Shown piece by piece: positions 56,176-60,116 of a DNA stretch of 64,000 bases (positions are counted from its first letter, which is position 1; each line of letters opens with the position of its first letter). The notes beneath the pieces were generated by a model. It searched no databases. It saw nothing but the letters and a program-made list of their open reading frames with translations, and had not been told where the DNA came from. The DNA is from Krasilnikoviella flava (lineage in GTDB: Bacteria > Actinomycetota > Actinomycetes > Actinomycetales > Cellulomonadaceae). The stretch covers positions 186,001 to 250,000 of the forward strand of contig NZ_FUZQ01000006.1 of NCBI RefSeq assembly GCF_900167525.1, read 5' to 3'. Made by a program: the position numbers and the translations under genes.

Positions 56176-56292
56176 TCCCCGCGCTTGCCCGCACGCCGGA
56201 CGGCGCGGGGCCAGGTCGTCACCCGGGGCACCCCGCCGCGAGAGGAGGGTTGCCGGCCAGCGAGCCGGGGCTTGACGCTGGCGCTCTTGACC
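56176..56292 (-). ncRNA. SAM-IV riboswitch
   Basis: On the minus strand the leader reads GGTCAAGAGCGCCAGCGTC, then CCCCGGCTCGCTGGCCGGC, AACCCTCC and GGGGTGCCCCGGGTGACGACC, then GGCAAGCGCGGGG. These blocks, in this order, are the conserved segments of the actinobacterial SAM-IV aptamer. The P1 pairing GGTC/GACC and the downstream GGCAAGCGCGGG (P5/pseudoknot part) are both present. It lies 35 bp before the aminotransferase ATG. A GGGGAG/CTCCCC stem follows the aptamer. Confidence 0.85.
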
Positions 56293-56400: not shown

Positions 56401-56556
56401 ATGATCTCCGTCCGCCGCGCGACGACTCTCGACGTCGGCGCGATCCACCTCCAGCTCAGCATCGCGTGGGACAACACCCGGGCGCAGTCGCTCTACGAGG
56501 CCGAGGGGTTCGAGCGCGAGCGCGAGTTCGTCACGTACCGCCTCCCCCTCGGCTGA
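56401..56556 (+). pseudogene. GNAT acetyltransferase remnant with internal deletion
   Basis: 51 residues. The first 16 (MISVRRATTLDVGAIH) are a GNAT start and the last 30 (AWDNTRAQSLYEAEGFEREREFVTYRLPLG) are a GNAT end. The whole acetyl-CoA-binding centre, about 90 residues, is missing, but the reading frame is kept. It could still be translated as a short peptide; more likely it is a decaying gene. It lies directly upstream of the sigma-factor gene, 10 bp before its ATG, so its transcript might run into it. Confidence 0.75.
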
Positions 56557-56566
56557 GGGCTCGGCG

Positions 56567-57214
56567 ATGTCCAGGATCGGTGGTGGGGCCGACGGCCCGC
56601 TCGGCGCGGAGCTCGACGCCGCGCTGCGGTCCGGAGACCCGCACGCGTGCCGCCGCGCCGTGGCCGAGGCAGTGGCCACCGCCGGGCCGGACGACGTGCT
56701 CGACGTGCTCGGCAGGCACGCCGCCGCGGGCTCCGTGCTCGGCACCGAGCTGCTGGTCGAGCTGCTGGACGAGTCGGGCGTGGTGCGCCGGTTCGTGCGC
56801 GGGGCGCTCCTCGACGAGTCGGCGGTGGACGACGTCTGCCAGGACGTGCTGATCTCCGTCGCGGGCTCGCTGGGGTCGTTCGCCGGCGCCTCGAAGGTCA
56901 CCACCTGGGTGCACGGGATCGTGCGCCACCGGGTGGTCGACCACCTGCGCCGGCAGCGGGCCACGGCACCCCTGCCCGACGACGACGTCGCGCCCGGCGC
57001 GCGCATGAGCTCGCTCATCGCCACGCGGGCCACGGTGCGCGACGCCCTCGCGGCCCTCCCGGACCTCTACCGTGAGCCCGTGACGCTCCGAGACATCGAG
57101 GGCCTGCCGTACGCCGAGGTCGCCGACCGGCTGGGCCGCAGCCTGGGGACCGTGAAGTCCCAGGTGTCGCGCGGCCGGGCGCTGGTCGCCGCCGCGCTCG
57201 GGGGCGCGCTCTGA
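56567..57214 (+). CDS. ECF-like sigma-70 family factor coupled to a kinase
   Basis: 215 residues. Sigma region 2 is ESAVDDVCQDVLISVAGSLGSFAGASKVTTWVHGIVRHRVVDHLRRQR (about 80-130) and region 4 is RATVRDALAALPDLYREPVTLRDIEGLPYAEVADRLGRSLGTVKSQVSRGRALV (about 155-207). A 75-residue N-terminal extension rich in Ala and acidic residues is unusual. No anti-sigma gene is adjacent; instead the stop overlaps the start of a Ser/Thr kinase gene (TGATG). Kinase-linked ECF factors are known in other bacteria, so control by phosphorylation is plausible. Confidence 0.9.
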   Translation: MSRIGGGADGPLGAELDAALRSGDPHACRRAVAEAVATAGPDDVLDVLGRHAAAGSVLGTELLVELLDESGVVRRFVRGALLDESAVDDVCQDVLISVAGSLGSFAGASKVTTWVHGIVRHRVVDHLRRQRATAPLPDDDVAPGARMSSLIATRATVRDALAALPDLYREPVTLRDIEGLPYAEVADRLGRSLGTVKSQVSRGRALVAAALGGAL

Positions 57215-58452
57215 TGGCCGGCCGGGAGCTGATGGGACGGTACCGGGTCGGGGACGTCATCGGCGTCGGGTCGTTCGCCACCGTGCACCGCGCCGTCGAC
57301 GAGCGGCTCGACGACACCGTGGTCGTGAAGGTCCTCGCGGAGAACCACAGCCTCAACCCGGAGATCCGCGAGCGCTTCATCGCCGAGGGGCGGGCGCTGC
57401 GCCGGGTCGCGAGCCCGCACGTCGTCACCGTCTACGACATCGGCGAGAGCGACCGCCAGCAGCCGTACCTCGTGCTCGAGCACGCCGACCGCGGCACGCT
57501 CGCCGAGCGGGTGCGCGAGCTGCGGGCGGCCGGCTGGACCGCCGAGCGGGCGGACGTGCTCGCCGTGGCCCGCGGGCTCGCCGCGGCGGTCGAGGCGGTG
57601 CACGCCGCCCGCCTGGTGCACCGCGACCTCAGCCCCGGCAACGTGCTGCTGCGCACCGGCCCGGACGCGCCCGCCGCCGACCCCCTGCCCGGCGGCACCC
57701 TGCCCGATGACGCGCCGTCGGCCGTCGTGCGCCCCGACGAGCGGCTCGTCGTCGCCGACCTCGGCATGTGCAAGGACCTGGCCCTCAGCTCGGGGCTCAC
57801 CGTCGCTGGCGGCACCAGCGGCTTCCGGCCGCCCGAGCAGGACGGCCCGGGCACGGTCGACACCCGCGCGGACCTGTGGGCGATGTCCGCGCTGCTCGCC
57901 TGGCTCTCCGACGGCGCCGACCTGCCGCGGGCGCTGCCGCGGGCGCTGCGCCGCAGCCTCGCGGAGGCTCCGGCGAGGCGGCACCCCGACGTCGCCGCGT
58001 GGCTCGCGGACGTGGAGGCCGCGCTCGGCCCCGCGGACGAGGCGCCCGGCACGCCCGCCGGCCCGGCGGCCCCGCGGGCCGGACGACGGCGGCGCACGGC
58101 GACGGCGGCCGTCGTCGCCGTCGTGCTGGGTGCCGGGGTCGGCCTCGGCGCCGGGCTGGGCGCCGCCGCCTGGCTCGACGACCGGCCGCGTGCGAGCGCC
58201 GGCGCGGCCGGCGTCGCGATCTCCGGGCCCGCGTCCGCCGTCGTCGGGGAGCCCGTCACGCTCACGGCCCAGGTCACCGGCGCCGACCACTGGGTGTGGA
58301 CCCTGCCCACCGGGGCCTACACGGCCGACGACGGCTCGGTCGAGCTCACCGCGAGCACCCCCGGACGCGCCGAGGTGGTGCTCGAGGCACGAGCCCCCGA
58401 CGGGACGGCCCTCACGGCCGTGCACCGCCTCGACGTGATCGACCAGGGCTGA
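57214..58452 (+). CDS. Membrane Ser/Thr protein kinase with a PKD-like extracellular domain
   Basis: 412 residues. Kinase motifs: Gly loop DVIGVGSFATVHRAVD, Lys39 (VVVKVLAEN), catalytic HRDLSPGNVLL and DLG in place of DFG (VVADLGMCKDLA), then TSGFRPPEQ. One helix near 300-322 (from AVVAVVLGAGVGLGAGLG) leads to an outside domain of about 85 residues (AISGPASAVVGEPVTLTAQVTGADHWVWTLPTGAYTADDGSVELTASTPGRAEVVLEAR) with PKD/Ig-like character. It probably senses an envelope signal and phosphorylates the coupled sigma factor (inference). Confidence 0.9.
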   Translation: MAGRELMGRYRVGDVIGVGSFATVHRAVDERLDDTVVVKVLAENHSLNPEIRERFIAEGRALRRVASPHVVTVYDIGESDRQQPYLVLEHADRGTLAERVRELRAAGWTAERADVLAVARGLAAAVEAVHAARLVHRDLSPGNVLLRTGPDAPAADPLPGGTLPDDAPSAVVRPDERLVVADLGMCKDLALSSGLTVAGGTSGFRPPEQDGPGTVDTRADLWAMSALLAWLSDGADLPRALPRALRRSLAEAPARRHPDVAAWLADVEAALGPADEAPGTPAGPAAPRAGRRRRTATAAVVAVVLGAGVGLGAGLGAAAWLDDRPRASAGAAGVAISGPASAVVGEPVTLTAQVTGADHWVWTLPTGAYTADDGSVELTASTPGRAEVVLEARAPDGTALTAVHRLDVIDQG

Positions 58453-58527
58453 CACACCGGGCTGACACACCGCGCCGACACCGGGTGCCCGCGCGGCAGA
58501 GCACGTCGAAAAAGGTTTGGGCCGCCG

Positions 58528-58554
58528 TGCAACTCTTTCGCCGTCCCGCACGAC
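58528..58554 (+). promoter_or_regulatory. Candidate ECF-type promoter of the lipoprotein gene
   Basis: TGCAAC at 58528-58533 and CGAC at 58551-58554, 17 bp apart, resemble ECF-type -35 and -10 elements and lie 50 bp before the lipoprotein start. Weak: the spacing and sequence are only compatible, and no second copy was found. Confidence 0.3.
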
Positions 58555-58604
58555 TCACCCCTGTCAGACACCAGCAGCTCGACCCCTTCCGGTCAGGAGA
58601 GATC

Positions 58605-59240
58605 ATGCGACACCTGCCCCGCCGACTGGCACCGATCGCCGTCGTCGGCCTGCTCGCCCTCGGAGCCTGCTCGCCGGGCGGCACCGATGCCGAGTTCGAC
58701 GACGCCGGCTCGACCGCCGACGCCGCGCCGAAGTCCGACGACGCCGCCACTGACGACGCCACCGCGGCCGCCGACGACGGCGGCACCGACGCCTCAGAGG
58801 GCACCGCGGGAGTCGACTTCCCGGACCCGGAGGACGTGGTCGCGGACGCGACGTTCACGGTGCCGGGGACGGAGAAGGACGAGGTCCGCATCGGGGTCGA
58901 GTCGATCGTGGTGTCGGGCGGGACCATGGAGCTGCGCCTCGTCGTGACCCCCGAGTACGACGACGGCGGCAGGGCCGCGTCCGTCTACGACACGTTCGGC
59001 GAGCAGATGAGCGTCGCGCTGATCGACCGGGAGAACCTCAAGGAGTACCAGGTGCTCGAGGCGGACGGGGGCGGCCGGTGGTACCGGACCGACCCGGTGT
59101 ACGCCAAGGCACTGCCCGGCCAGTCCGTGGGCTACCAGTCGTTCTTCGCCGCGCCGGAGGACGACGTCACGACGGTCGACGTCAAGCTGACCGACTCGTG
59201 GCCGGTGTTCGAGGACGTCCCCCTGACCTTCGAGGACTGA
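58605..59240 (+). CDS. Asp/Ala-rich surface lipoprotein
   Basis: 211 residues. Signal MRHLPRRLAPIAVVGL and lipobox LALGAC with Cys22. A 50-residue acidic linker (DAEFDDAGSTADAAPKSDDAATDDATAAADDGG) spaces a folded beta-rich domain (ATFTVPGTEKDEVRIGVESIVVSGGTMELRLVVTPEYDDGGRAASVYDTFGEQMSVALIDRENLKEYQVL, ending in VDVKLTDSWPVFEDVPLTFED) from the membrane. It resembles DUF4352-like immunoglobulin-type domains. Its stop is one base before the GTG of the OmpA-like gene, so the two are probably co-translated. Confidence 0.8.
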   Translation: MRHLPRRLAPIAVVGLLALGACSPGGTDAEFDDAGSTADAAPKSDDAATDDATAAADDGGTDASEGTAGVDFPDPEDVVADATFTVPGTEKDEVRIGVESIVVSGGTMELRLVVTPEYDDGGRAASVYDTFGEQMSVALIDRENLKEYQVLEADGGGRWYRTDPVYAKALPGQSVGYQSFFAAPEDDVTTVDVKLTDSWPVFEDVPLTFED

Positions 59241-59241
59241 C

Positions 59242-59868
59242 GTGCGACGCCCACCTCTCGCGCGCCGGACGGCGCCGCTCGCGACGGTCCTGACCCTCGC
59301 GCTCACCACGGCCACCCTCGGCTCCGCAGCTTCCGCCACGTCCGCCACGTCCGCGGACTCCTACGACTGGCCGACCATCGACTCCCTCGACCTCGGCGAG
59401 CCCGCCCAGGAGCAGCGCGTGGCCTCCGTGACGGCCTATGTCGCCGACGGCTCCGTCACGCGGTACGTGGTCGAGGGCTCGGTCGACCCGGTCGACGACA
59501 CCACGACGGACGGCGGCGAGACCGTCGTGACCCTCTCGTCCGACATCCTCTTCGACTCGAGCGACGCCTCGCTGTCGAAGGCCGCCAAGGCCAAGATCGC
59601 CTCCCTCGTCGAGGACGCGCCGGAGGGCGCCGCCGTGACGATCGACGGCCACACCGACACGGTCGACACCGACGCGTTCAACCAGGACCTGTCCGAACGA
59701 CGGGCGAAGGCCGTGGCCGGTGCCGTCGGCGACGCCCGCGGCGACCTGAAGCTCGACGTGCACGGGTACGGCGAGACGCAGCTCAAGGAGCCCGAGACGG
59801 GCGACGGCGAGGCCGTGGCCCATGCGCGCGCGGAGAACCGTCGCGTCGAGATCCGCTACGGCAGCTGA
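59242..59868 (+). CDS. OmpA-family peptidoglycan-binding protein
   Basis: 208 residues from a GTG. Signal peptide 1-36. The C-terminal OmpA domain is VVTLSSDILFDSSDASLSKAAKAKIASLVEDAPEGAAVTIDGHTDTVDTDAFNQDLSERRAKAVAGAVGDARGDLKLDVHGYGETQ...ENRRVEIRYGS; the DGHTDxxxxxxxNxxLSxxRA signature binds peptidoglycan. A short N-terminal region has no recognised domain. It completes the sigma-kinase-lipoprotein-OmpA set. Confidence 0.9.
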   Translation: MRRPPLARRTAPLATVLTLALTTATLGSAASATSATSADSYDWPTIDSLDLGEPAQEQRVASVTAYVADGSVTRYVVEGSVDPVDDTTTDGGETVVTLSSDILFDSSDASLSKAAKAKIASLVEDAPEGAAVTIDGHTDTVDTDAFNQDLSERRAKAVAGAVGDARGDLKLDVHGYGETQLKEPETGDGEAVAHARAENRRVEIRYGS

Positions 59869-59989: not shown

Positions 59990-60116
59990 ATCGCCACGAC
60001 CATCCCGAGCGGCCGAGTGACGTGGCACGTCGACGCCGCAGCAACCCGCGGGCCGGTCGTCGCCTATGGCGACGGGCGGTCCGGACGAGGGTGCTACCGC
60101 CACGACCGATGGGAGG
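59990..60116 (+). ncRNA. S-box (SAM-I) riboswitch
   Basis: Conserved core pieces in order: CGAGCGGCCGAGTGACGTGG, GACGCCGCAGCAACC, a P3 stem GTCGCC/GGCGAC (60058-60074) and GGGTGCTACCGCC. GCGGC pairs with GCCGC to form P2. The outer helix P1 joins CCATC (60000-60004) to GATGG (60108-60112). GATGG runs into the GGGAGG ribosome site (60111-60116) of the rhodanese gene, so SAM-dependent P1 formation should hide the site. Confidence 0.8.

Follow-up and report, generated by a model that had tools for sequence, protein, structure and literature searches.

A sigma factor–kinase pair of Krasilnikoviella flava and its relatives is co-conserved with lipoproteins that share a short tag beside the lipid anchor

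Introduction

What does a membrane kinase encoded directly behind a sigma factor gene respond to outside the cell, and which genes does the pair control? The locus that raises this question lies at positions 56567–59868 of a 64,000-nucleotide stretch of the Krasilnikoviella flava genome (RefSeq GCF_900167525.1, contig NZ_FUZQ01000006.1; hereafter the window), where genes for an extracytoplasmic function (ECF) sigma factor, a membrane Ser/Thr kinase, a lipoprotein and an OmpA-domain protein follow one another. An original prediction, made from the letters of the window, proposed that the four form a self-contained circuit in which an outside signal passes through the kinase to the sigma factor and on to surface genes. 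By comparing related loci at the level of sequence, we find that what stays constant beside the sigma–kinase pair is not the OmpA protein but a lipoprotein that carries an A-x-F tag next to its lipid anchor. The sequences show co-conservation, a shared promoter, the tag itself, a PKD fold of the kinase outer domain, and the loss of both tag and promoter from sites that have neither sigma factor nor kinase. Its constancy and its tag make the lipoprotein a candidate ligand of the kinase as well as a predicted output of the sigma factor, and so more than a downstream surface gene.

Activation of a sigma factor by a neighbouring kinase has been shown for the proteobacterial ECF43 proteins EcfP, EcfK and a Hyphomonas homologue. 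Phosphorylation activates both EcfP and EcfK (PMC8999054, PMC13147305). In EcfP a phospho-Thr stands where region 2.2 otherwise has its acidic motif (PMC8999054), a scheme that a review extends to other groups linked to Ser/Thr protein kinases (STPKs), describing STPK-regulated ECFs as devoid of acidic residues in region 2.2 (PMC8103513). PknS phosphorylates EcfK also in the linker between sigma2 and sigma4, where T106 is critical, and the same source describes this linker as nonconserved in ECF sigma factors and reports phosphorylation of Mycobacterium tuberculosis SigH by PknB at linker residues T106 and T110, the effect being left open (PMC13147305). The sole actinobacterial member of six groups proposed to be regulated by phosphorylation is the STPK-linked ECF283, with Nocardioides sp. 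Root190 as its type (PMC8999054).

Results

The home genome of K. flava comprises 4.85 Mb in 10 contigs, and the window has a GC content of 70–76%. Pfam matches and open reading frames (ORFs) uphold the four genes as real, as had been proposed. The features of the locus are as follows.

56567–57214, forward strand: ECF sigma factor of 215 residues, with Pfam regions 2 and 4; aligned in 46 loci.
57008–57013, forward strand: codons of S148–S149 in the sigma2–sigma4 linker (R-M-S-S-L-I-A-T-R), candidate phosphosites by invariance and by analogy with EcfK T106 (PMC13147305).
57214–58452, forward strand: membrane Ser/Thr kinase of 412 residues with HRDLSPGN and DLG motifs and a single transmembrane stretch (by eye); Pfam Pkinase, 91.3 bits; in the 25-sequence alignment.
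58204–58449, forward strand: PKD-fold outer domain of the kinase, from a model of 58162–58449 with a predicted local distance difference test (pLDDT) score of 92.7; PDB match to ColG PKD, E 1e-5.
58529–58557, forward strand: predicted target promoter GCAACT-N16-CGACTCA, from the pattern of the kinase–lipoprotein gap; single site in the home genome.
58605–59240, forward strand: lipoprotein of 211 residues, start ATG at 58605, with lipobox LGAC (by eye), acidic linker and MPT63/YcdA-like beta sandwich.
58689–58697, forward strand: A-x-F tag (AEF), residues 8–10 of the mature lipoprotein; A8 and F10 invariant in a 15-sequence alignment.
59242–59868, forward strand: secreted OmpA-domain protein of 208 residues (Pfam OmpA), starting 1 nt past the lipoprotein stop; signal peptide by eye.

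The sigma stop codon TGA (57212–57214) overlaps the kinase ATG (57214) by 1 nt, and no anti-sigma gene adjoins the pair, both in agreement with the original prediction; the flanks are a class V aminotransferase gene on one side and, on the other, a rhodanese gene followed by a gene that by eye is sulfhydrylase-like.

We next asked which of these genes stay together in other genomes. The kinase was found in 2 of 18 genomes of the genus (E <= 1e-40), in 14 of 297 genomes of the order (E <= 1e-35; ten close copies and four distant ones), and in 9 of 296 genomes of a class sample, two of them members of the same genus and seven distant. A scan of the GTDB species collection with two peptide patterns, which reaches close relatives, yielded 43 loci, mostly in Micrococcales (Nesterenkonia, Brachybacterium, Georgenia, Serinicoccus, Brevibacterium, Microbacterium, Isoptericola and others). 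Counting duplicates, a sigma gene adjoins the kinase gene in 56 of 58 related loci, and the remaining two (L079, L080) are spurious Deltaproteobacterial hits. The sigma stop and kinase start overlap in most of the loci read, and a lipoprotein gene lies downstream of the kinase in most loci. The proposed co-occurrence of all four genes thus stands for the sigma factor, the kinase and the lipoprotein that follows, with OmpA as a variable member: the OmpA domain is fused to the lipoprotein in L024 and L042, was not found beside it in L041, L044 and L048, and is elsewhere a separate next gene. Behind the lipid anchor its place is taken by a VWA domain in L041 and by unnamed domains in L044 and L048. 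Because its state depends on the locus, we ruled out OmpA as the defining partner. For the counts that follow, ORFs in the relatives were picked by codon bias rather than with a gene finder, and we left out duplicates, near-identical contigs and one cut-off distant locus (L036, L050–L052, L054, L058, L061, L062, L070, L075), the spurious L079 and L080 and, except in the sigma alignment, L055, whose contig ends at the kinase.

Several observations on distribution stand beside these counts. Two Brachybacterium species, B. alimentarium and B. tyrofermentans, have two separate sigma–kinase modules apiece (L029/L030 and L050/L057), which differ in the type of their tagged lipoprotein. The contig of L041, labelled as an Acidobacteria metagenome-assembled genome, carries a Micrococcales-like module with 59% kinase identity and the VWA lipoprotein, and is probably misbinned. 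A mobile plasmid origin was considered and rejected, since no plasmid kinase matched at 1e-40 and the short kinase-like DNA matches covered at best 9% of the query. The presence of Nesterenkonia, Isoptericola halotolerans, Serinicoccus and cheese Brachybacterium among the species found in the GTDB scan offers a link to halotolerance as a lead only.

The lipoproteins themselves differ in their outer domains (OmpA, VWA, MPT63-like and others without a name). These otherwise unrelated proteins have in common the sequence A-x-F, which lies a few residues past the lipidated cysteine and in most cases has an acidic residue behind it. When the first 50 mature residues of 15 module lipoproteins were aligned, C1, A8 and F10 were the only invariant positions. 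We searched for the tag as a hydrophobic stretch, a lipobox and C-x2-9-A-x-F within 1.2 kb of the kinase, at 38 core and 7 distant loci, and found it in 35 of the 38 core loci. One core locus, L026, has an in-frame TAG at ~6134 within the tag of its module lipoprotein gene, marking either a broken gene or a sequencing error. Background matches numbered five in 847 kb of single-strand sequence, and two of these are further cassette members. None of the 30 lipobox ORFs taken from 400 kb elsewhere in five carrier genomes has the tag. Behind the strict form of the promoter described below, 27 of 31 lipobox ORFs carry it, compared to 3 of 99 that lack a promoter match, all three being relatives of the module; the control sets of 30 and 99 ORFs mix false ORFs with true lipoproteins.

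The gap between kinase and lipoprotein genes contains an ECF-type promoter, GCAACY-N16-CGACWYA, with fixed spacing. Across 45 loci, a site with at most two mismatches occurs in 35 of the 45 gaps downstream of the kinase, compared to 0 of 45 shuffled gaps. Upstream of the sigma gene such a site occurs in 2 of 42 regions (L044 and L053, the latter a contig-edge artefact), and autoregulation of the sigma factor from the same promoter was therefore rejected. A laxer form (CGACNYA) has a single site in the home genome, the one at 58529–58557, with none for the reversed-pattern control; there are three sites in total across 14 congeners without the kinase, and 20 in 24 genomes, 8 of them at modules, versus 14 for the reversed pattern. 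The strict form (CGACWYA) has 32 sites in 23 carrier genomes versus 13 for the reversed pattern. We examined 30 strict sites, 27 of which lie ahead of lipoproteins, 23 of these tagged; 17 of the 30 are not independent, because they belong to the very module loci that supplied the pattern. Among the 13 strict sites outside modules, seven stand ahead of tagged lipoproteins (L110, L114, L115, L122, L123, L124, L126), three ahead of untagged lipoproteins (L107, L108, L129) and three ahead of no lipoprotein (L101, L117, L130).

Homologues in genomes that lack the sigma–kinase pair serve as natural controls. A search of the 297 order genomes for the lipoprotein family gave 27 genomes. Tag and promoter were both present in all 8 readable module or cassette copies from kinase carriers, a ninth copy (L196) having a stop inside the tag. 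By contrast, both were missing from all 17 readable homologues from genomes without a kinase hit, where "without" means no match at E <= 1e-35 in a search that scored only the best candidates per genome; three further kinase-free homologues (L201, L214, L217) were unreadable or dubious. An unlinked extra copy of the lipoprotein in a carrier (L215) has neither tag nor promoter. The module's own insertion site gives a second control. The flanking rhodanese gene is present in 18 of 18 genus genomes; 14 of them have no module between it and the nearby divergent aminotransferase gene, two genomes have the module, and in G012 the two genes are separated by ~2.4 kb of other DNA. At the site in G009 we found a lipoprotein (56% identical) and an OmpA protein (52%), with neither sigma factor nor kinase there and no kinase match anywhere in the genome. 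The N-terminus of this lipoprotein has no tag, and its best upstream promoter match has five mismatches. Together, G009 and the kinase-free homologues indicate that tag and promoter go with the sigma factor and kinase; the presence of the lipoprotein or of OmpA does not by itself bring them along.

Within the window, the modelled lipoprotein consists of an acidic low-confidence stretch followed by a beta sandwich. VIA-align placed YxkC first (Z 9.1, root-mean-square deviation 3.5 Å, 109 residues aligned), ahead of MPT63 (Z 8.9; 3.2 Å, 108) and YcdA (Z 8.7; 3.5 Å, 109). On the question of MPT63 or DUF4352 membership, Foldseek with the model gave no match at E <= 0.001 and Pfam gave no hit above its cut-off. 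The next gene's product has a C-terminal OmpA domain (Pfam, 42.6 bits versus a cut-off of 27.2).

The kinase is of the Hanks type: G17, G19, K39, H136-R137-D138, N143 and D182 are invariant in all 25 aligned sequences, as is G200-T201 of the activation loop, and the top PDB sequence matches of the kinase domain are PknA, StkP and PknB. DLG in place of DFG, noted earlier for the window kinase, proved invariant (25/25), while the kinase motifs caught in five of the six other kinase loci of the home genome read DFG. Missed by the original prediction was a second departure, the catalytic loop HRDLSPxN with Ser replacing the usual Lys, in 23 of the 25 kinases; in the window it reads HRDLSPGN (57619–57642). 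The outer domain, already suspected to be of the PKD kind, is modelled as a PKD fold, with ColG PKD domains as the best PDB folds in Foldseek (E 1e-5, template modelling score 0.64–0.74), although the Pfam PKD match by sequence scores below its cut-off. This domain is conserved across loci. No PASTA repeats were matched by Pfam in the window kinase, where the PknB_PASTA model reaches 122.9 bits versus a cut-off of 450.

The window sigma factor matches Sigma70_r2 (40.1 bits) and Sigma70_r4_2 (62.3 bits), and the Sigma70_r2 and Sigma70_r4 families are the only sigma-region models with a match, which gives regions 2 and 4 without region 3, as in group 4 (ECF) sigma factors; by eye, an N-terminal extension of ~50–60 residues precedes region 2. 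In an alignment of 39 core and 7 distant sigma factors, region 2.2 of the core proteins is acidic, reading AVDDVxQ(D/E) or a near variant. We considered an ECF43-type switch at this position and rejected it, since the region stays acidic where an uncharged, STTA-like sequence with a phospho-Thr would be looked for; with AVDD kept, a switch of the EcfP type is not expected there. The sigma2–sigma4 linker is strongly conserved in this family, with S148 and S149 unchanged in every one of the 39 core sigma factors. Based on this conservation, the invariant Ser pair and the phosphorylation of EcfK in its linker, we predict that S148 and S149 are the phosphosites. In the more distant f45 and f37 pairs the linker position reads RTTSVIAG. 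The same linker is seen in seven more distant actinobacterial pairs (L181–L187), which have a different outer domain and a sigma gene divergent from the kinase gene in 6 of 7 loci (where both were seen); they are possibly the published ECF283 group.

The surroundings of the module add three observations. Ahead of the class V aminotransferase gene lies a SAM-IV riboswitch (99.5 bits, 56176–56292, reverse strand). The rhodanese and sulfhydrylase genes are in turn preceded by a SAM riboswitch-like match (59997–60115, forward strand), whose 38.1 bits fall short of the gathering threshold of 44.4, so that the module is placed between two apparently SAM-controlled genes. Immediately upstream of the sigma gene, a 51-codon open frame (56401–56556, forward strand) resembles by eye the start and end of an acetyltransferase with the middle gone, and is perhaps a gene remnant.

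Discussion

Co-conservation and an ECF promoter ahead of the lipoprotein (35/45) and not ahead of the sigma gene (2/42) bear out the proposed kinase–sigma–surface gene circuit in outline, with the correction that OmpA is not a constant element of it. We lean slightly toward reading the module as an envelope homeostat, in which the PKD domain reads tagged lipoproteins, the kinase phosphorylates the sigma factor, and the sigma factor transcribes genes for tagged lipoproteins. Sigma phosphorylation, tag binding, the nature of the signal and the sign of the feedback are what we infer in this scheme. Sigma factor and kinase would be co-expressed from a start site that lacks the promoter used by the sigma factor itself. 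The membrane-proximal PKD domain would contact the A-x-F tag, which the lipid anchor holds within a few residues of the membrane. The far ends of the tagged lipoproteins would reach the wall, often via an OmpA domain in the same chain or in the protein encoded next. The kinase would be switched when engagement of the tag changes, either in the level of free tag or through strain on or loss of the membrane–wall link, and would then phosphorylate the sigma factor, most likely at S148/S149, adding negative charge for docking to RNA polymerase. Transcription would then run from GCAACY-N16-CGACWYA, which in the home genome stands ahead of the lipoprotein–OmpA operon alone and in several relatives is also seen ahead of remote tagged lipoproteins. 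The product would feed back on the kinase, and we favour negative over positive feedback. Contact between PKD domain and tag is the simplest reading because the outer domain is conserved while the lipoproteins differ in much except the tag and an acidic linker. That A-x-F is a membrane-side tag read by the PKD domain, with one sigma factor serving essentially the tag carriers and with interchangeable outer sensors (wall-binding OmpA, VWA, MPT63-like and others) swapped behind the tag, is a more tentative proposal, to which we give a little under an even chance.

A number of results weigh against the homeostat. Three core loci lack the tag: L026, with its stop; L066, which has no lipoprotein; and L071, which has an untagged one, although its genome encodes two tagged lipoproteins at other promoter sites (L110, L122). 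The tag is also absent within 1.2 kb of the kinase in 7 of 7 more distant sigma–kinase loci. The CGACNYA form of the promoter is weak alone, with 0 of its 12 sites outside modules preceding a tagged lipoprotein. Some strict sites lie ahead of untagged lipoproteins (L107, L108, L128, L129) or of no lipoprotein (L101, L117, L130), and the bare core GCAACY-N16-CGAC has 75 sites in the home genome versus 26 for the reversed pattern, so the regulon may be wider. Region 2.2 keeps its acidic residues, unlike that of the STPK-regulated ECFs of the review, and the change from Lys to Ser in the catalytic loop of 23 of 25 kinases means that kinase activity could be unusual. Lastly, duplication could carry tag, promoter and signal peptide along as one, with no need for the tag to bind the kinase.

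The strongest alternative is a linear pathway, in which the PKD domain senses an outside ligand, the kinase activates the sigma factor, and the tagged lipoproteins are outputs only, the tag serving in sorting, cleavage or a complex with an OmpA partner. PKD domains commonly bind ligands or other proteins, and the promoter evidence supports the lipoproteins as output. However, a role in sorting, cleavage or OmpA partnership would predict that the tag is kept wherever lipoprotein and OmpA remain, and it is gone from G009 and from the kinase-free homologues. We consider the linear pathway unlikely. Alternatively, promoter, signal peptide and first mature residues might duplicate or recombine as a unit before different domains, the tag being a functionless passenger. 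Similar N-termini do carry different C-terminal domains, and further cassettes occur in Nesterenkonia and Serinicoccus; but the neighbours of C1, A8 and F10 diverge while these three alone persist through the first 50 mature residues, a selective conservation that points to selection on A and F and makes a passive unit improbable. Least probable is a kinase that acts as an anti-sigma-like membrane holder, with weak or no catalysis and a sigma factor not regulated by phosphorylation: HRDLSP rather than HRDLKP and the acidic region 2.2 would suit it, but G17, G19, K39, D138, N143, D182 and G200-T201 are all invariant, as is the linker Ser pair.

How does the proposed homeostat compare to known systems? 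By gene arrangement, an ECF gene beside a Ser/Thr kinase gene with no anti-sigma gene, the module belongs to the kinase-coupled ECF kind, as do EcfP–PknT and EcfK–PknS, whose kinases are likewise of the Hanks type; on its sequence, it is not ECF43. It is from another phylum, has AVDD where EcfP has STTA in region 2.2 (PMC8999054), and has a PKD outer domain where PknS has TPR. The ECF43 regulons concern polymyxin resistance or the type VI secretion system, unlike the tagged lipoproteins predicted here. The kinase domain resembles those of the PASTA kinases PknB and StkP, from which the protein differs in having a PKD outer domain and no PASTA repeats, and in its DLG and HRDLSP motifs. SigH–PknB shares with the module an actinobacterial ECF sigma factor, a Ser/Thr kinase and two linker residues, the phosphosites being only predicted here; we know of no tagged lipoprotein in that system. 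In SigE–CseABC of Streptomyces, another actinobacterial ECF system, a lipoprotein (CseA) also modulates signalling, through a two-component system and with no kinase–sigma contact; to our knowledge, no lipoprotein tag has been reported there. In the Escherichia coli Rcs system (RcsF–OmpA–IgaA), a lipoprotein and an OmpA-type protein relate the state of the envelope to IgaA, an inner-membrane signalling protein. That system is didermic and uses an OmpA beta barrel and a phosphorelay, so the likeness is one of analogy only. No description of the tag or the gene set surfaced in the open-licence literature, in searches that were not aimed at the tag itself.

By gene arrangement, the module is a compact actinobacterial form of the kinase-coupled ECF kind. 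Its strict regulon is predicted to comprise a single promoter in the home genome, so that signal, kinase, phosphosite, promoter and output can all be tested within one small operon. If the tag is indeed read by the kinase, a short lipoprotein signature would act as a signalling address, which suggests how envelope lipoproteins with unrelated outer domains may share one signalling pathway.

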